A DNA stretch of 64,000 nucleotides from Gammaproteobacteria bacterium (GTDB lineage Bacteria; Pseudomonadota; Gammaproteobacteria; Burkholderiales; Nitrosomonadaceae), in contig JAUIIB010000001.1 in the NCBI GenBank assembly GCA_030431985.1, positions 62,001 through 126,000 of the forward strand, given 5' to 3'. A program made the translations under genes and the position numbers. The number at the start of each line of letters is the position of its first letter. The first letter of the stretch is position 1. Under the pieces are notes generated by a model. It ran no database searches, had not been told where the DNA came from, and saw nothing but the letters and a program-made list of their open reading frames with translations. Shown in pieces: positions 34,650 to 46,813 of this stretch.

Positions 34650-35426
34650 TCATACAACTGAGTCCGGTGTTTCCTCAAGTATTTGATTGCCATCATAAAC
34701 AATACCCCCGTCCTTAATCCGTATCAGTCTGTCGGCGTAAGCGGAGATTTCATTTTCATGAGTTACCAGTACAATTGTTATCCCTTGTTTACTATTGAGC
34801 TGCTTAAATAACGCCATTATATCCTTACTGGTTTGTGTATCGAGATTACCCGTTGGCTCATCGGCAAGAATAAGTGGTGGCTGATTAATCAATGCACGGC
34901 TGATTGCAATCCGTTGTTGCTGTCCACCGGATAATTGATTGGGGTAGTGCTGGGAAAATTTTTCCATACCAATACGTTCGAGTTGTTCGATTGCTTTTTG
35001 GCGGCTGATGGCACGGTTCTCACCGGCATACAATAGCGGCGTTGCAACGTTATCCAGGGCAGTTATGCGTTTTAGCAGATTAAATCCCTGAAAGACAAAA
35101 CCAATGTGACGATTGCGCAGGTGGGCAAGTGCATTGTTTGGTAGCGTGGCTACATTCTTGCCATTCAGCCAATAGTTGCCACTTGTTGGTGTATCTAAGC
35201 AACCCAGAATGTTCATCAATGTTGATTTGCCCGAACCGGAATGACCCATGATCGCGACAAACTCACCTTTTTCAATACGCAAATCGATATGATGTAGCAC
35301 TTTGTGCTCTATCGTCTTGCCGTCTACGCCCACGAGCTGGTAGTTTTTGTGCAGCTGCTCAATTTGGACTAAAGTGGAAGATACAGGCATTGAGATGGAG
35401 TTGGAGTCGCGCGTTTTTGTGTACAT
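34650..35426 (-). CDS. MacB-type ABC transporter ATP-binding protein
   Basis: 258 residues with Walker A GHSGSGKST, signature LSGGQQQR, Walker B LILADEPTGNLD and the switch histidine in LVTHE, all intact. Its ATG overlaps the adaptor stop by one base (TGATG). A later in-frame ATG at 35390 gives a LolD-like N-terminus, but the overlap favours the first. It powers the permease at 33335-34558. In MacB itself these are one polypeptide; here they are separate. Confidence 0.92.
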   Translation of the reverse strand: MYTKTRDSNSISMPVSSTLVQIEQLHKNYQLVGVDGKTIEHKVLHHIDLRIEKGEFVAIMGHSGSGKSTLMNILGCLDTPTSGNYWLNGKNVATLPNNALAHLRNRHIGFVFQGFNLLKRITALDNVATPLLYAGENRAISRQKAIEQLERIGMEKFSQHYPNQLSGGQQQRIAISRALINQPPLILADEPTGNLDTQTSKDIMALFKQLNSKQGITIVLVTHENEISAYADRLIRIKDGGIVYDGNQILEETPDSVV

Positions 35427-38269: not shown

Positions 38270-39265
38270 ATGATACTTGTGGATTCTCCTCTATCCGTTG
38301 TTGCCGCAGCGCTGTTGGCTTTCTGTGTGTCCTACTGTTTTATCATTTGGATCGTAAACTGGAAGACTGCAGTGGTTCTGGATTACCCTAATTCAAGATC
38401 ATTACATACCGACCCTGTACCGCGTGTAGGCGGTGTAGGACTACTATTTGGTGTCGTGTCGGCTTGGCTGGTTTTTTCAGCTAATCTCCCTGTTTTCGTC
38501 TGGTTAGGTGTCAGTGTATTAGCGGGCGTTTCAATTGTAGATGACATCTGGGAAGTGCCGGTTGGGTATCGTTTAACCGTGCATCTGTTTGTCGTGCTGG
38601 GATCCTGTATTTGGCTTTTGTTAGATACACAAGGTTGGCTGTACGTGATATTCAGTACGTTGATTGTTGTGTGGATATCAAATCTGTTTAACTTTATGGA
38701 TGGTTCTGACGGATTGGCAGGCGGTATGATACTCATCGGTTTTGGCTGCTATGGATTGGTAGCTATTTTAAGTGGAGATACTGGCTTTGCTCTGGTTAAT
38801 TTTTCGATTGCCGGGGCTTCGCTAGGATTTTTGTTTCATAATTTTTATCCGGCACGTGTCTTTTTAGGCGATGTAGGTGCGGTGCCGCTGGGCTATCTGG
38901 CCGCAGTAATGGGTTTGTTGGGATGGATAAACGGCCTGTGGTCATTATGGGTTCCGCTATTGATTTTTTCACCGTTTATTGCTGATGCAACGGTTACATT
39001 GCTAAAACGCTTGCTACGTGGTGAGAAAATCTGGCTGGCGCATTGTGAACATTACTATCAGCGTATGGTAAGAAGTGGGTTGGGGCACAAACGTACAGCA
39101 TTGTTTGGATACAGTCTTATGCTTGTTTCGGGTGCTAGTGCAATTTGGGTAAACGAGCGAGAAATCATAATTCAGTTTATTATGGTTGTTATTTGGGGAC
39201 TGGTTTATTTGGGGTTGATGTTAATGGCGGATTTTGGCGAGCGGCCCGATTCGGGTAAACGTTAA
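38270..39265 (+). CDS. WecA-like polyprenyl-phosphate glycosylphosphotransferase (GT4/MraY family)
   Basis: 331 residues with about ten membrane segments. Family motifs are LDYPNSRSLHTDPVPRVGG near residue 45, NLFNFMDGSDGLAGG (the NFMDGxDGL acidic metal site), and FLGDVGAVPLGYLA. It transfers a sugar-1-phosphate onto undecaprenyl phosphate in the inner membrane, the first step of an O-antigen or exopolysaccharide unit. Its stop is one base before the ATG of the dehydratase gene, so the two are an operon. Confidence 0.92.
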   Translation: MILVDSPLSVVAAALLAFCVSYCFIIWIVNWKTAVVLDYPNSRSLHTDPVPRVGGVGLLFGVVSAWLVFSANLPVFVWLGVSVLAGVSIVDDIWEVPVGYRLTVHLFVVLGSCIWLLLDTQGWLYVIFSTLIVVWISNLFNFMDGSDGLAGGMILIGFGCYGLVAILSGDTGFALVNFSIAGASLGFLFHNFYPARVFLGDVGAVPLGYLAAVMGLLGWINGLWSLWVPLLIFSPFIADATVTLLKRLLRGEKIWLAHCEHYYQRMVRSGLGHKRTALFGYSLMLVSGASAIWVNEREIIIQFIMVVIWGLVYLGLMLMADFGERPDSGKR

Positions 39266-39266
39266 A

Positions 39267-41144
39267 ATGTTTGGTAACAAGTACGGTATACGTTCGATAA
39301 TTGCATTTATCCACGATCTGGTTGCGGTGGTGGCTGCATGGTCGTTTGCATTTTTATTTTATGTTAATTTTAATGTTGCCGCCGTACCGTTTGACTTGTT
39401 GCTCGATTTGATGTCCTGGATACTGCCTGTACAGGCTGTTATCTTTTTGTGGTTGGGCTTATATAGGGGGTTGTGGCGTTACGCTAGTCTTCCTGATGTG
39501 AAACGTATTACAGTTACGGTGGCATTAAGCGCAGTCATCGTTAGCGGTATTTTCTGGCAGCTTGATTTCCTGAACGTGGTGCCGCATGCAGTCAATGTAC
39601 TGGCACCCATTTTGTTGCTATTGATTATGGGTGGCAGCAGGTTAATTTATCGTGCATGGAAGGAACGTCGTTTATACAGTCTTGAAAATTATGAAGGTAA
39701 GCTGGCAATTATCCTGGGTGCTGGCAATACCGCCGTCAATCTCGTTAAAGATCTGGCCAGCAGCCGTGATTGGCATGTGGTCGGCATGCTGGATGACGAC
39801 CCAAGAAAACTAGGAACACGCTTGCATGGTGTGCGTGTTCTGGGCGGGATTGATGATTTGCCGCACTGGGTGCATAAATTAAATGCGGGTCACGTCATCA
39901 TAGCGATGCCATCCTTGTCACACCGGTTACGTCGCCATATTCTGGAGATGTGCTCGGAAATAGGAATTAAAGCATTGACTGTACCTTCCTATCAAGATCT
40001 TATCAATGGTAAAACGACCGTTTCCCAAATTCGAGAGATACGGCTGGATGACTTGCTGGGCAGGGCGCCGGTTGTGCTTGATGATGAAGGGTTACATGGA
40101 CTGTTGACCGGAAAGACGATCCTGGTTACAGGTGCCGGTGGTTCTATCGGGGCTGAGCTATGCCGGCAGATTATTGCGTTCCAGCCGGCGCAGCTAGTAT
40201 TGTTTGAGCGTAATGAATATGCACTGTATTGCGTTCAGGAGGAGTTTCAAGCAAGTTTTCCAGGTACAAAAATGTCATTTGTAATCGGTGACGTTAAAGA
40301 TAGTGCCCGGTTGGAACAGCTGTTTCAACAATTCAGGCCGACGGTCGTGTTTCATGCGGCTGCCTATAAACATGTACCCTTGATGGAGCATGAGAACGCC
40401 TGGCAGGCTGTGTTGAACAATGTCATGGGTACTTATGTGTTAGCGAGTACGGCAATTCGTTTTGAAGTAAAAAAATTCGTGCTAGTTTCTACCGACAAGG
40501 CAGTGAATCCTGTCAATATCATGGGGGCGAGTAAACGGCTGGCAGAGATGGTTTGTCAGGCTGTGCAGCAGTCGATCAAGAATCACAAACAGATCACATG
40601 CTTTGTTATGGTGCGCTTTGGCAATGTGTTGGGCAGTGCCGGCAGTGTTATACCGAAGTTTCGTCAGCAGATCACTCACGGCGGACCGATAACAGTTACC
40701 CATCCAGAAATGACACGTTATTTCATGTCTATTCCGGAAGCAGCGCAGCTGGTTTTACAGGCGGGTTTGATGGGTGGGCTGAAAGGTGGAGGAGAGATTT
40801 TTGTAATGGATATGGGTGATCCAGTCAAGATTATTGACCTTGCACGCGATATGATCCGTTTGTCCGGTTTGGGAGAAGATGATATTCGTATCGTTTATAC
40901 AGGATTGCGTCCGGGAGAAAAATTACATGAAGAATTGCTCTCTGCTAATGAAAATACGGTACCCACACCCCATACCAAGCTTCGTATTGCTCAAGCACCT
41001 GAAGTAAATGAGCAGTGGTTAACTGCTTTTGTAGAGCGTTTTGAAAAAATTGAGGCGTTAAGCGACAAAGATGCCCGTGAGGAACTTACAAAATGGGTGC
41101 CGGAATATTCGCCGAATGGCGAAGCGCTGTACGAACAATTATGA
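39267..41144 (+). CDS. Membrane-bound nucleotide-sugar 4,6-dehydratase (CapD/WbpM type)
   Basis: 625 residues from the ATG just after the WecA-like stop. Four N-terminal membrane spans (about 1-120) are followed by a CoA-binding-like Rossmann domain (AIILGAGNTAVNL) and the catalytic short-chain dehydrogenase domain with TGAGGSIGAELCRQI, the STDKAVNPVN block and MVRFGNVLGS. Such enzymes convert UDP-GlcNAc to 4-keto-6-deoxy sugars (for example QuiNAc or FucNAc precursors). The gene ends 6 bases into the convergent ABC-like gene. Confidence 0.93.
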   Translation: MFGNKYGIRSIIAFIHDLVAVVAAWSFAFLFYVNFNVAAVPFDLLLDLMSWILPVQAVIFLWLGLYRGLWRYASLPDVKRITVTVALSAVIVSGIFWQLDFLNVVPHAVNVLAPILLLLIMGGSRLIYRAWKERRLYSLENYEGKLAIILGAGNTAVNLVKDLASSRDWHVVGMLDDDPRKLGTRLHGVRVLGGIDDLPHWVHKLNAGHVIIAMPSLSHRLRRHILEMCSEIGIKALTVPSYQDLINGKTTVSQIREIRLDDLLGRAPVVLDDEGLHGLLTGKTILVTGAGGSIGAELCRQIIAFQPAQLVLFERNEYALYCVQEEFQASFPGTKMSFVIGDVKDSARLEQLFQQFRPTVVFHAAAYKHVPLMEHENAWQAVLNNVMGTYVLASTAIRFEVKKFVLVSTDKAVNPVNIMGASKRLAEMVCQAVQQSIKNHKQITCFVMVRFGNVLGSAGSVIPKFRQQITHGGPITVTHPEMTRYFMSIPEAAQLVLQAGLMGGLKGGGEIFVMDMGDPVKIIDLARDMIRLSGLGEDDIRIVYTGLRPGEKLHEELLSANENTVPTPHTKLRIAQAPEVNEQWLTAFVERFEKIEALSDKDAREELTKWVPEYSPNGEALYEQL

Positions 41145-42800
41145 CTGGTATTCTGTAACTTGGCCGTTGTTAAATAAGAAAATACGGTCAATAGGGTGCT
41201 TAATGGCGGGGATCGAGTCCAACAGGATAATTGTGGTGGGTTTATTCACTAGAGTGGCCAAAACTTGATTTAAGTCGGTCTGGTTTGGTTGCAACCATAA
41301 GTTGTCTAGAATCAGGATGGTTGGGTTCTTAAGTAATGCCCGAGAAATGTCAATCTTTTGTCGTTGTAGACAGGTGAGGCCAGGGCCGTTCGGGCTAATA
41401 TATGTTTGTAGTCCGTTGGGCATTTCCCGCACGAAAGCGGTTACTCCAACAGCCTGGGAAACGGCGGTGATATTGGCTTCATGTGCACATGCAGTATAGC
41501 CATAGGCAATATTGCCGGCAATCGTATCGCTCATGATGACAGGGTCATGCGAAACAATAGCGAAATGTGTGAACAGATCAGTATGCTTGATTATTTCAAT
41601 CGGTATATCGTCAAATAGTATTTGACCGGTTTTGGGCTTCTGGAAGCCTAATAGTAAATCAATCAGCAATGATCGCATTTTCTGACACTTACAAACGAAT
41701 GCGATCGTTTCATTGGGTTTGATCTCTAAATCAAGCGTGTACGGCAACATTCCATCTGTGCTTTGATTTAAAAAACTGGCATGTTTGAAAGCAAGTTTAC
41801 CTTGCGCCTTGGTTAATTCTGTTTTTTCTTGCTCGCTTATTGCAGGTTGATCCAGTAATTGAAAGATCTGTTGTAAATGCTTTTTTGTATCTTGGAATGA
41901 TTGAGGTAAGCCAGCCATTCTATTGATGGGAGCAATGAGTAGTAATGCAGCAGCAGCAAAAGCGGCAAACTGGTCAGCTGTAAATTGATCTCTGAGCGCC
42001 ATCTGAATCATCAGATACGTAATTGCTGTAGCAATTAAGAGCGTGATCAATTGACAGACTGTTGCGATGAATGCGCTATAGTTGGCGCGATTCGCATTAC
42101 TATTTTGCTCGGATTGCAGCATAGCTTTTAAATGCTGGTATTCCTGATTCTGTGCGCCATGAAGTCTGATTAGCTTGGCATATTTGGTCAAATGCTGTAG
42201 CTGCGTGATTAAGGGTAACGAATCGGGCTGATTAGAGTTTACGCTTATATGACGATGTTTTTGAACGATATGTTGCATAATCAAGGTGAATGGAATCAGT
42301 AGTGCAAAAAGTCCTGCAAAATCTTTGTTGAGCCAGCTCAAGCAGAGTACCAGGACGATGATGATCAGCGTGTCACGTACCAGGATGCTTAGCATTTGAG
42401 TGATTGACCCGGCAATTTCGTTGATTTGAAATAATGCGTTTTTAGTAACCTGATTTGTATCAAAGTATCGCTGCTGATGTATGGGTAGGTTAACTATCAC
42501 GTCAAATAGTGAGGTGCAGAGTTGAGTGCTAAGACAATGACATGCTTTTCGCGTTAGAACACGACTGAAATAACTGGCGAAACCGCGAATGAGTATCAGT
42601 GCTGTAAATACCAGCAGGGTGTTTTGTATGGTGATGATGTTTTTTTCTAAAAAGGCGGCGGATAGTGTTTGCTGAACCAGTAATGGTATGACTGCGTGAG
42701 AAATGGCGATGATTACGAGTATGAAAGATATTTGAATAAAAATTGCGTTACAGGGTGAGGTATTTTTTATCAGTCGTTTGTAGTTGTGTATGTGAATCAT
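41139..42800 (-). CDS. MsbA-like ABC membrane protein with degenerate nucleotide-binding domain
   Basis: 553 residues from the ATG at 42800 (an in-frame TTG at 42845 adds 15). The N-terminal part has five or six membrane spans of an ABC exporter. The C-terminal 190 residues align along the whole length with an MsbA-type nucleotide-binding domain, yet every working motif is lost. The P-loop reads VCKCQKMRS in place of VGxSGSGKS (41670-41693). The Q-loop Gln is His (41549). LSGGQ is LTCLQ (41364-41378). Walker B ends LDN, not LDE (41301-41318). The H-loop His is Asp (near 41219). Structural residues around them (DTIAGNIAYGY, QRQKIDISRALL, ILILD) are kept, and there is no stop or frameshift. So it is probably a pseudo-ATPase, or a very young pseudogene. 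It sits in a polysaccharide locus. Confidence 0.8.
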   Translation of the reverse strand: MIHIHNYKRLIKNTSPCNAIFIQISFILVIIAISHAVIPLLVQQTLSAAFLEKNIITIQNTLLVFTALILIRGFASYFSRVLTRKACHCLSTQLCTSLFDVIVNLPIHQQRYFDTNQVTKNALFQINEIAGSITQMLSILVRDTLIIIVLVLCLSWLNKDFAGLFALLIPFTLIMQHIVQKHRHISVNSNQPDSLPLITQLQHLTKYAKLIRLHGAQNQEYQHLKAMLQSEQNSNANRANYSAFIATVCQLITLLIATAITYLMIQMALRDQFTADQFAAFAAAALLLIAPINRMAGLPQSFQDTKKHLQQIFQLLDQPAISEQEKTELTKAQGKLAFKHASFLNQSTDGMLPYTLDLEIKPNETIAFVCKCQKMRSLLIDLLLGFQKPKTGQILFDDIPIEIIKHTDLFTHFAIVSHDPVIMSDTIAGNIAYGYTACAHEANITAVSQAVGVTAFVREMPNGLQTYISPNGPGLTCLQRQKIDISRALLKNPTILILDNLWLQPNQTDLNQVLATLVNKPTTIILLDSIPAIKHPIDRIFLFNNGQVTEYQS

Positions 42801-42819: not shown

Positions 42820-43098
42820 TTGGCAGATACTGTTTTAATAATCAATAAAAGTGTTGGTCGCTATCCGGAGTTGCAGTCGGTCAATATTTTAAGTCAGTTG
42901 CTGCAATTCAGCTCTCATGTCAACGCGTATGAATATAGTACAATGTTTTTTGTGCGGCAATATTCAGTCGATCAGATAGAAAAAAGCTGTGTCACGATGG
43001 CTGACGAAATTGCTGTCTACTGTCAGTGGCCGGTTAACAGAGTGAATTCGATAGATATGCCTAAGATTTGCCAATTGAACGGGGTACACAAACAGTGA
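42820..43098 (+). CDS. Possible small protein upstream of rfbA
   Basis: 92 residues from a TTG start with AGGAAG 7 bases before it, divergent from the ABC-like gene. Not recognised; no signal peptide, membrane span or motif. It ends in a GTGA overlap with a possible GTG start of rfbA (43095), which suggests translational coupling. Support is modest: the start codon is weak and I know no family. Confidence 0.42.
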
Positions 43099-44024
43099 GC
43101 GTAACAGCACCGCAATTTGCAGAAAATCATGCGGAGTATAAGGTGGATCGAAGAAAGGGTATCGTGTTGGCGGGGGGGTCAGGTACGCGGCTTTATCCCG
43201 TTACGCATGTGGTCTCCAAGCAGTTGTTGCCTGTTTTTGATAAACCGATGGTGTATTATCCGCTGAGTACTTTGATGCTGGCAGGTATTCGCGATCTACT
43301 TGTAATATCGACGCCGTCGGATATTGTACATTATGAACGGTTGCTCGGTGATGGGCGGCAGTGGGGATTAAATATCGCCTATGCAGTTCAACCTGTGCCA
43401 GGCGGGCTGGCGCAGGCATTCTTAATAGGCGAGTCATTTATTGATGGTAATTATTCGGCGCTCGTTTTAGGTGATAACATTTTTTATGGTCACGATCTCG
43501 ATCGTTTATTGAGCAACGCCATGATGCGCGCTGCAGGTGCAAGTATTTTCGCCTACCATGTCCAGGATCCAAAACGTTACGGTGTCGTTGAGTTTGATGC
43601 ATATGGACGCGCGGTCAATCTTGAAGAAAAGCCGACAAATCCGAAATCTAACTATGCAGTGACAGGTTTGTATTTTTATGATCAACAGGTTGTCGACTAT
43701 GCGAAAAGTATTCGCCCTTCCGGTCGTGGTGAATTGGAAATTACCGATATTAACCAGATTTACTTGGAACAGTCATCACTCCATGTTGAAATTATGGACC
43801 GGGGTTATGCCTGGTTGGATACTGGAACTCATGAATCATTGCTGGAGGCAGGTCATTTTGTCGCTACGATTGAACATCGGCAAGGTCTGAAAATAGCGTG
43901 CCCCGAAGAAATTGCCTTCAGACAGGGCTGGATTGACGCCGAACAGCTGGAGGCGTTGGCGATGCGTTTGGATAAAAACGGTTATGGACAGTATCTACTG
44001 CAGGTCTTAAAACAAAAAAATTGA
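43095..44024 (+). CDS. rfbA: Glucose-1-phosphate thymidylyltransferase
   Basis: 309 residues from GTG 43095, or 293 from GTG 43143, which has GGAG before it and gives the usual short N-terminus just before [16 protein letters not shown]. Motifs: the nucleotidyl-transfer loop [29 protein letters not shown], and the metal and substrate block [12 protein letters not shown]. It makes dTDP-glucose, the first step to dTDP-rhamnose. rfbC follows 10 bp downstream; rfbB and rfbD are not in the window. Confidence 0.94.
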
Positions 44025-44601: not shown

Positions 44602-45954
44602 ATGGCTAAGCAGAAATCAGTTTATGTCTGTACGGCTTGCGGCGGACAAACATTGAAATGGCAAGGTCAATGTCCGCACTGCCAAATGTGGAATACGCTG
44701 ACTGAGACAGTCGCCGAAAAACCGGCTTCACGTTTCAGCCCGGTGTCGGGGAAAAGTCAGGTGCAAAATCTGAGCGAAATTGAGGCACTGGAAGAACCCA
44801 GGTATGTGACTGGCATTTCAGAGCTTGATCGAGTACTTGGTGGGGGCCTTGTGCGCGGGGGAGTGGTATTACTGGGTGGTGATCCGGGAATCGGAAAGTC
44901 CACTTTGTTGCTTCAGGCGTTGTCGAATCTCTCCATGCACCGGCAGGTAATGTATGTGAGTGGCGAGGAATCGGCGCAGCAGGTAGCCTTACGCGCTAAA
45001 CGCCTGGCATCGAATGTGCAGACAATACCCCTGTTTGCAGAAATTCAGCTGGAAACCATTTTGGCTACTTTAGGGGAACATAAGCCTGAAGTTGCAGTTA
45101 TCGATTCCATTCAAACGATTTATTCGGAGGCGCTGCAATCTGCGCCAGGCTCTGTAGCACAGGTAAGAGAATGCGCCGCGCAATTGACGCGATTGGCTAA
45201 ATCCAGTGGTACCACCGTTATACTCGTCGGTCATGTGACTAAGGAAGGCGCATTGGCCGGGCCGCGTGTGTTAGAGCATATGGTTGATACCGTTTTGTAT
45301 TTTGAAGGCGATATGCATTCCAGCTTTCGTTTGATACGTGCATTCAAGAACCGTTATGGAGCGGTGAATGAACTGGGTGTATTTGCTATGAGTGAGAAAG
45401 GATTGCGTGAGGTCAGAAATCCATCGGCATTGTTTTTATCGCATCACGACAGGCAGGTTTCCGGTTCTTGCATCATGGTAACCCAGGAGGGTACACGTCC
45501 GTTATTGGTTGAGATACAGGCGTTGGTCGATGAGGCGCGGGCGCCGCATCCCAAACGATTGAGCGTCGGCCTGGAGCAGAACCGGCTGGCGATGCTGTTG
45601 GCGGTTTTACATCGTCATGCCGGTATTCCATGTTTTGATCAAGATGTGTTTGTGAATGCGGTAGGCGGCGTAAAAATTACTGAACCGGGTGCGGATCTTG
45701 CAATATTGTTGGCTGTTGTGTCGTCTTTGAAAAACAAGCCACTTTTGGAAAAAACGGTGGTTATCGGTGAAGTTGGCTTGGCCGGAGAAGTACGTCCGGT
45801 TCAGCGTGGTCAGGAACGTTTAAAAGAAGCGGAGAAACTAGGTTTTAAACGTGCAATCATCCCGTTGTCGAATAAGCCTAAACTGTCAATTGGCGATATT
45901 GACGTTATTCCCGTCGGAAGAATCAGTGAAGCGGTTACCCGGATGTATGTCTAG
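44602..45954 (+). CDS. radA: DNA repair protein RadA
   Basis: 450 residues. A four-cysteine zinc finger opens the protein (CTACGGQTLKWQGQCPHC), followed by a RecA-like ATPase with Walker A GGDPGIGKST, the RadA-specific KNRYG motif, and a Lon-like C-terminal domain. It drives branch migration in recombination. It lies 15 bp after rfbC, and its end overlaps the next gene by 8 bases. Confidence 0.96.
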   Translation: MAKQKSVYVCTACGGQTLKWQGQCPHCQMWNTLTETVAEKPASRFSPVSGKSQVQNLSEIEALEEPRYVTGISELDRVLGGGLVRGGVVLLGGDPGIGKSTLLLQALSNLSMHRQVMYVSGEESAQQVALRAKRLASNVQTIPLFAEIQLETILATLGEHKPEVAVIDSIQTIYSEALQSAPGSVAQVRECAAQLTRLAKSSGTTVILVGHVTKEGALAGPRVLEHMVDTVLYFEGDMHSSFRLIRAFKNRYGAVNELGVFAMSEKGLREVRNPSALFLSHHDRQVSGSCIMVTQEGTRPLLVEIQALVDEARAPHPKRLSVGLEQNRLAMLLAVLHRHAGIPCFDQDVFVNAVGGVKITEPGADLAILLAVVSSLKNKPLLEKTVVIGEVGLAGEVRPVQRGQERLKEAEKLGFKRAIIPLSNKPKLSIGDIDVIPVGRISEAVTRMYV

Positions 45955-46813
45955 GCTGCATAGTGCTGTAGTGCGTTTTTTCTATGAGGCGGACAGAAAG
46001 ACGCGAGTGCGGCTATGGCTGTTGATTGTTTTATCTATCATCGTTACATTGCTGGCCACAATAGTTCCGCCAGTTCCGCAACCCCATAGTTATCATCAGT
46101 TTGCCGATCAACGTAACTTACTCGGTATTCCGAATTTTATGAACGTAACGTCGAATCTGGCATTTCTATTGAGCGGATTAGCGGGATTGGTGTTACTGTG
46201 GTATGCGAAAAAAGTGTCGAGTAAACCTGCCGGACAGCAAAGGTTTATGACAATAGTTGAATACTGGCCCTATCTGGTATTGTTTATAAGCGTGGCAATG
46301 GTTGCGCCCGGTTCTGCGTATTATCATTGGGAGCCGAATAATGTTAGTTTACTCTGGGATAGACTGCCGATTGCCGTGGGTGTTGGGGCTTTGCTGGCGG
46401 CGGTTCTATCTGAACGAATAAACCCCATGTTTGGATTATGGGCATTGCCTGTGCTCGTTATTATGGGCGCTGGCAGTGTTATATATTGGTTCTGGAGTGA
46501 ACAGCAGGGGTACGGCAATTTAAATTATTATATTGTCGTTCAGTTTTATTCGTTGCTGCTGATCGTACTATTCAGTCTGTTGCAGCCTTCCCATTATAAT
46601 CGGGGAGGAGACATTTACGTGGCTGTCGGTTTATATGCGACCGCTAAGCTTGCGGAAATATTCGATCAGCAAATCTTTGATTTAGGTGGGGTTGTCAGCG
46701 GACATACAATAAAGCATCTGCTCGCAGCATTGGCAATTCTTTGGATTGTCCGAATGCTGCTGAAAAGAAAAATTGTCGTAGCTTTCGACGAGGTGCATCC
46801 GCTACAAGAATAA
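45947..46813 (+). CDS. Ceramidase-like integral membrane protein
   Basis: 288 residues starting inside the end of radA. Seven or so membrane segments. Features of the alkaline ceramidase / CREST hydrolase superfamily are DQRNLLGIPNFMNVTSNLAFLLSG at the N-terminus, a Ser/His stretch SAYYHWEPNN with a following WDRLPI Asp, and GHTIKHLLAALA with HxxxH near the C-terminus, the likely zinc ligands. It would hydrolyse a lipid amide or related bond in the membrane; the substrate is unknown. Confidence 0.75.
   Translation: MSRLHSAVVRFFYEADRKTRVRLWLLIVLSIIVTLLATIVPPVPQPHSYHQFADQRNLLGIPNFMNVTSNLAFLLSGLAGLVLLWYAKKVSSKPAGQQRFMTIVEYWPYLVLFISVAMVAPGSAYYHWEPNNVSLLWDRLPIAVGVGALLAAVLSERINPMFGLWALPVLVIMGAGSVIYWFWSEQQGYGNLNYYIVVQFYSLLLIVLFSLLQPSHYNRGGDIYVAVGLYATAKLAEIFDQQIFDLGGVVSGHTIKHLLAALAILWIVRMLLKRKIVVAFDEVHPLQE

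Follow-up and report, generated by a model that had tools for sequence, protein, structure and literature searches.

A minus-strand open reading frame (ORF) in a 64,000-nucleotide stretch of contig JAUIIB010000001.1 (assembly GCA_030431985.1, Nitrosomonadaceae; the whole stretch is hereafter called the window) encodes a full-length relative of MsbA, the ATP-driven flippase of lipid A, in which the ATPase motifs are broken. Comparison across the Nitrosomonadaceae indicates that this gene, at complement(41139..42800), is their true orthologue of MsbA. The genomes read, from four genera, appear to have in common a pseudo-ATPase of MsbA descent, which stands beside a lost lipid A pathway. Why keep an exporter without its motor? 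We think it likely that the protein, its ATPase dead, is retained for a non-catalytic role; that this role is specifically the handling of lipids we suggest only tentatively.

The frame comprises 553 codons plus a stop and reads openly from an ATG at 42800. An initial annotation, made from the letters of the window, had described such an MsbA-like frame, to which we add the minus strand. The 553-residue product (P0001) exceeds the gathering thresholds of both PF00664 and PF00005 and has the full-length fold of an ATP-binding cassette (ABC) exporter. Its top NCBIfam model is TIGR02203, MsbA, which aligns end to end with 263 bits, below the 602-bit cut-off. The C-terminal part does align with a nucleotide-binding domain (NBD), as annotated, but over about 220 residues rather than 190. 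Motif sites of this protein and its orthologues were numbered by alignment to E. coli MsbA. Walker A (41670..41693) reads CKCQKMRS instead of GxxGxGK[ST] (residues 376-383 of E. coli MsbA, GRSGSGKS), with K382 replaced by Arg; the Q-loop Gln (Q424) is His at residue 418 (41547..41549); the ABC signature (41364..41378) is LTCLQ instead of LSGGQ; Walker B (41301..41306) has D-N instead of D-E (D505-E506 in E. coli); and the H-loop His (H537) is Asp at residue 528 (41217..41219), all on the minus strand. The A-loop Tyr, which the annotation did not mention, is likewise lost, so that every tested consensus site except the Walker B Asp is gone. E. coli numbering agrees with the annotation on the replacement of P-loop, Q-loop, LSGGQ, Walker B Glu and H-loop His. 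D505, NIAYG, QRQK and ISRALL are retained, in line with the neighbouring structural residues that the annotation found kept.

Orthologues were sought in 61 genomes with a protein query and in 125 family genomes with TIGR02203, nine candidates per genome being scored in the latter search. Four genera of the family have them, the window's own (g1) as well as g26, g27 and g28; the protein search found a copy in 35 of the first 37 g1 genomes. One orthologue per genome was read in 62 of the 125 (36/85 in g1, 15/23 in g27, 6/9 in g28 and 5/8 in g26), after two census rows had been dropped, L258 as a paralogue taken by coordinates and L257 as a duplicate of L133. The Walker A consensus is found in 0/62, the SGG of the signature in 2, the Q-loop Gln in 11, the H-loop His in 10 and an A-loop aromatic residue in 2; the Walker A Lys remains in 37, and the Walker B Asp and the catalytic Glu in 54 each. 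By comparison, Walker A is intact in each of the 20 top-scoring TIGR02203 loci found in other families of the order (L039-L058), which serve as our freer control. A further 80 named loci, fetched by patterns outside the motifs, comprised 13 degenerate loci and 67 with motifs, one of the latter cut by a contig end; these 67 canonical rows were picked from the 80 as not degenerate, and their intact motifs are therefore partly a matter of choice. Nine of the degenerate loci are titled Nitrosomonas, one Nitrosovibrio and one Nitrosospira, titles carried by 0/67 canonical loci, and this ties the degenerate proteins to the three genera. The other two (L138, L141) are metagenome-assembled genomes with other titles. 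One of them, the contig JAJCXN010000006.1 (L141), is titled Acidobacteriota and holds a Nitrosomonas-type pseudo-MsbA; it is probably mislabelled or misbinned.

Does anything still hold this gene in place? Frameshifts and internal stops are absent from the frames read of the gene and its orthologues, two of which run off contig ends, and the frame is kept where identity within the genus has fallen to about 28-45%. The ratio of non-synonymous to synonymous divergence (dN/dS) is 0.14-0.30 over 20 distinct pairs of orthologues, L081/L082 (dS 0) having been dropped along with a duplicate entry for L010/L011, and it is 0.23-0.29 even where dS is 0.08-0.16 (L016/L017, L075/L078, L091/L092). On open frames and ratios that are not near 1, we rejected a young pseudogene. 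The NBD has a lower dN/dS than the transmembrane domain (TMD) in 15 of the 18 pairs with both values defined; domain values of two dS-saturated pairs were dropped. For the neighbours rmlA, wbpM and radA, dN/dS is 0.03-0.09 in six comparisons. A ratio well below 1 but above that of the neighbours describes a protein that is constrained yet fast-evolving. Site classes were compared at 50-70% overall identity, in 78 pairs from g1, 4347 from g27 (database proteins included) and 1715 of canonical MsbA. Former motif sites are identical at 55% in g1 and 42% in g27, against 90% in canonical MsbA. The remaining NBD is identical at 63%, 65% and 64%, and the TMD at 53%, 52% and 52%, respectively. The non-catalytic scaffold is therefore conserved as in a working transporter, which is the strongest evidence against a relic. 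Cys438 (41487..41489, minus strand) is found in 35 of the 36 genus orthologues read and in fewer than 20% of the 67 canonical rows, where Gly, Glu and Gln are commonest; this near-invariant residue may point to an altered interface.

A single origin of the motif loss was favoured at first. A second protein search gave 3858 hits, of which 120 were listed and their motifs then read. Among these 120, three proteins (P0137, P0142 and P0156) keep Walker A, the Q-loop Gln, SGG, DE and the H-loop His and have lost only the A-loop Tyr; two others (P0157 and P0162) keep Walker A and have lost the Q-loop Gln. In a tree from which the motif columns had been excluded, the first three lie inside a degenerate clade, and it is this position that gives them the label Nitrosospira-type; the forks leading to them from the family root have supports of 86, 100, 96, 98, 36 and 99. 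With motif-keeping proteins inside the degenerate clade, the single origin was given up. Provided that a motif once gone stays gone, Walker A must have disappeared at least 5 times, SGG 6 times, the Q-loop Gln 8 times and the H-loop His 9 times; for these counts, forks below 80 were collapsed in favour of fewer losses. With regain or transfer allowed, Walker A needs just 4 changes on the same tree. Parallel erosion seems to us the likelier history because a P-loop should be harder to rebuild than to lose, and the ATPase motifs have probably been eroded in parallel in several lineages. From the two trees made with these proteins, 13 rows were left out, as were most canonical rows and the genus rows of the earlier alignment except for 10; of the 120 listed proteins, 27 were kept in the first and 26 in the second, which provided the loss counts. 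Loss extends to R190, R238 and K243, which we take to be lipid A-path residues: they are basic in 67/67 canonical rows against 3%, 3% and 18% of 34 Nitrosomonas rows. With motifs and basic residues lost, Nitrosomonas is therefore without ATP sites and without part of the charge that binds lipid A.

Could the gene simply be dying? A slowly decaying relic, functionless since lipid A was lost and under relaxed selection, with a frame still open merely because decay is slow, would account for the repeated motif losses counted under irreversibility, for a dN/dS above that of neighbouring genes and for the missing lipid A-path residues in Nitrosomonas. It is hard to square with open frames in the orthologues read, with their survival through such deep divergence, with ratios well below 1 at low dS, with an NBD and TMD as conserved outside the motifs as in active MsbA, and with Cys438. 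We regard it as unlikely. Other observations also weigh against retention for a non-catalytic role. Disuse would likewise give parallel motif loss, and within one and the same genome pair this MsbA has 2-5 times the dN/dS of rmlA, wbpM and radA, a sign of weaker constraint. In 63 of the 125 family genomes the orthologue was left unread or the copy lies outside the listed rows. Among the first 37 g1 genomes, G003 and G019 have no clear copy, although both also give no hits for LptF/G or serine palmitoyltransferase (SPT) and their assemblies are probably gapped. The profile match crosses one stop in G015 and in G066, whose frames, as read, have 554 and 574 residues. Nitrosomonas partly keeps other basic residues (R78 in 68%, R148 in 47%, K299 in 44% and K215 in 100%), and g27 keeps R78, R148, R188, K243 and K299, with R190 and R238 mostly lost. 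A wbpM-like neighbour, lastly, is found in 5 of the 10 other genus loci and in 0 of the 2 g26 loci read. The initial annotation had argued that this was not random decay and had proposed a membrane pseudo-ATPase. The first point is upheld by a Walker A broken in 62/62 orthologues next to non-motif sites conserved as in active MsbA. The second is supported by a protein that is conserved, full-length and under purifying selection in genus and family: the comparison of orthologues and dN/dS that the annotation suggested found changed motifs common to both, low ratios and open frames. Given P0137, P0142 and P0156, intact but for the A-loop Tyr, loss in several lineages is more probable than a single change.

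Orthology rests on trees and on shared synteny. In a tree with canonical rows thinned, a branch with SH-aLRT (approximate likelihood-ratio test) support of 100 separates 69 degenerate rows from the canonical MsbAs and five paralogues, the latter long-branched and falling within the canonical set. TIGR02203 is above its cut-off in 0/31 genus genomes against 18/20 genomes of other families in the order; on this and on the trees, a stray paralogue with the real MsbA elsewhere was rejected. Six of the 125 family genomes reach that cut-off, and the five listed (L069-L073) are all Walker A-broken. In the window the gene is flanked by what we presume, from their Pfam matches, to be a WbpM/CapD-like dehydratase gene (39234..41144, plus strand, PF02719), convergent with it and overlapping its 3' end by 6 bases, a WecA-like glycosyltransferase gene (38270..39265, plus strand, PF00953) and an RmlA-like nucleotidyltransferase gene (43068..44024, plus strand, PF00483). 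The first two are syntenic markers; the third adjoins the gene in 7 of the 10 other genus loci read. The order receptor-sized gene, pseudo-msbA, wbpM, wecA recurs in three loci of g27 and one of g28, the receptor-sized gene being a TonB receptor in both loci checked by Pfam (L123, L126). One of the four outgroup loci read (L130 of G051) has a TonB receptor, msbA and wbpM, there with an intact MsbA. The locus is thus the old msbA site, common to this outgroup genome, rather than informative as the polysaccharide locus of the initial annotation; the telling context is the loss of lipid A genes genome-wide.

LpxC is found in none of the 125 family genomes. It is present in 57 of 60 sampled genomes of the order, and the misses include two of the window's genus, the window's own genome (G000) and G006, which makes 57/58 outside the family. 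WaaA occurs in 1/125, in a bin that is 6% contaminated and whose waaA contig also has a second lpxK hit. LpxA is above its cut-off in 8/125, all of them g27 genomes (8/23) in which it stands alone (L101-L108) without LpxC; one of these copies aligns well with solved LpxA. The window's genome gives no LpxC, LpxA or WaaA hits and has an LpxK homologue. Such homologues are above cut-off in 82/85 genus genomes and in 0/40 other family genomes. The GGxGKT motif is altered in 20/20 copies read (G000:C40:10327-11259, which is L215; L097-L100; L216-L230); solved LpxK (4ehw) has VGNLSVGGSGKT where one Nitrosomonas copy has VDSLSVSDSGKT. The Nitrosomonas LpxK, though above the lpxK cut-off, is therefore a candidate second pseudoenzyme of the lost pathway. 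In some Nitrosomonas species the homologue is fused C-terminally to a Trm112-like part. Opiyo et al. 2010 (PMC3087551) reported lpxK alone for N. europaea and lpxA alone for N. multiformis; the loss of lipid A was therefore already known for these two species, and our data extend it to the family.

Might some lipid A still be made and exported? An energised exporter that moves, by a non-canonical ATP site, a residual or alternative form of lipid A whose synthesis needs no LpxC could point to the retained LptD and LptF/G (below), to the surviving LpxK and g27 LpxA homologues and to the three Nitrosospira-type proteins that lack only the A-loop Tyr. The absence of LpxC and near absence of WaaA, the loss of the Walker A consensus and, in all but two of 62 orthologues, of SGG, the altered GGxGKT of LpxK and the loss of R190, R238 and K243 in most Nitrosomonas rows make it highly improbable.

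What, then, does the outer membrane receive? LptD is found in 124/125 family genomes and LptF/G in 121/125; the export bridge is therefore kept. An SPT match of 51-56% identity, with E. coli BL21(DE3) SPT as the query, is present in 120/125; G066 has a 34% match only, and four genomes have none. This search covered family genomes only. On the contig of the window and about 47 kb before it lies an aasR-cerR-acpR-spt cluster (G000:C59:10576-14788). Its SPT best matches solved serine palmitoyltransferases and stands with the acyl carrier protein and ligase genes expected of an LPS-less sphingolipid diderm. For N. eutropha, PMC9386255 lists aasR, acpR and spt, and PMC11324152 counts orthologues for 13 or more of the 17 Caulobacter CPG2 cluster genes, with none for CC_1166 (a potential flippase) and CC_1168 (LptC2). 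Key lipid A genes missing, the Lpt bridge kept, sphingolipid genes present and an MsbA with broken motifs under purifying selection: this is what the sequences of the family show, and lipid A has probably been replaced by sphingolipid. A membrane-type ORF beside radA (45851-46813 of the window, plus strand) matches PF05875, Ceramidase, weakly (26.7 bits against a cut-off of 32.5); it stays near radA in several genus loci, a curiosity in a sphingolipid maker.

The protein could also be a heterodimer's silent subunit, paired with an active ABC half-exporter. A TIGR02204 MsbA-related exporter above cut-off and with intact motifs is encoded in the window's genome (L003:1408-3177, on G000:C9) and another in G009 (L059), and the excerpt of PMC12038006 describes exporters with one degenerate, catalytically impaired site. 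Neither the window nor any of the family loci read has an active half-exporter gene next to pseudo-msbA, and the co-located partner for which the initial annotation advised looking did not turn up. In heterodimeric exporters, moreover, the ATP sites are composite; with Walker A and signature both lost from one subunit, both sites would be incomplete. An active heterodimer is therefore quite improbable. The ABC gene at 34650-35426, which we take to encode a MacB-type protein, was dismissed as a partner, being a different kind of ABC protein. If any ATP-driven flipping remains, the TIGR02204 exporter is its best candidate. The window's genome also has a tandem ABC exporter (G000:C23; L005, L006), whose single frame holds two ABC units and is truncated where the contig ends; as a whole it scores 633 bits with TIGR02203 because of the two units. 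Considered as the sixth family genome above the TIGR02203 cut-off, it was set aside, as it had not been counted over cut-off in the genus search.

How might retention for a non-catalytic role have come about? The lineage would have stopped making lipid A and retained MsbA afterwards; the motifs would then have eroded in several lineages while the non-catalytic NBD and the TMD stayed under purifying selection. The product would be an MsbA-like dimer that sits in the inner membrane without hydrolysing ATP and does what is left of its work, most likely structural or a passive handling of lipids, independently of ATP. A passive role could be to hold, gate or scramble, ahead of Lpt extraction, a lipid such as a derivative of ceramide or one of O-antigen type, with active flipping, if needed, left to another ABC exporter such as the intact TIGR02204 one. 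A bolder version, which we hold possible but doubtful, is that the lipopolysaccharide (LPS) export chain has been given over to sphingolipids, with the MsbA fold passing ceramide lipids to the retained Lpt bridge in the manner of a docking scaffold, a scramblase or a passive gate, and the LpxK of Nitrosomonas made a second pseudoenzyme by the same shift.

A globally important family that keeps a motorless MsbA after the loss of lipid A would show an ABC exporter scaffold separated from its ATPase. It makes testable what Lpt carries without LPS and how bacterial sphingolipids get to the outer membrane, a route that is presently not known according to the excerpt of PMC11324152. Our literature search, confined to search listings, found no report of a dead MsbA in Nitrosomonadaceae.

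How does this protein compare with known systems? With the MsbA lipid A-core flippase (TIGR02203) it shares fold, length class, tree position, conservation of the TMD and NBD scaffold and, in one outgroup genome, the locus. It differs in lacking Walker A and the signature as well as the catalytic Glu and the H-loop His, in its score (263 against 602 bits), in a genome without LpxC and WaaA and in the loss of several basic residues. The TIGR02204 exporter of the same genome is likewise an MsbA-like half-exporter, but has intact motifs and lies elsewhere (L003). Like the degenerate-site heterodimer MsRv1273c/72c, as excerpted in PMC12038006, the present case involves a subunit with broken catalytic motifs; unlike it, Walker A and signature are both lost, no partner gene adjoins and descent is from MsbA. 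The Caulobacter CPG2 sphingolipid outer membrane, with its second LptC/F/G, shares the ceramide synthesis genes, to go by the excerpt of PMC11324152. In contrast to that system, the lipid A genes are missing here, MsbA is dead, and N. eutropha is reported to have orthologues of neither CC_1166 nor CC_1168.

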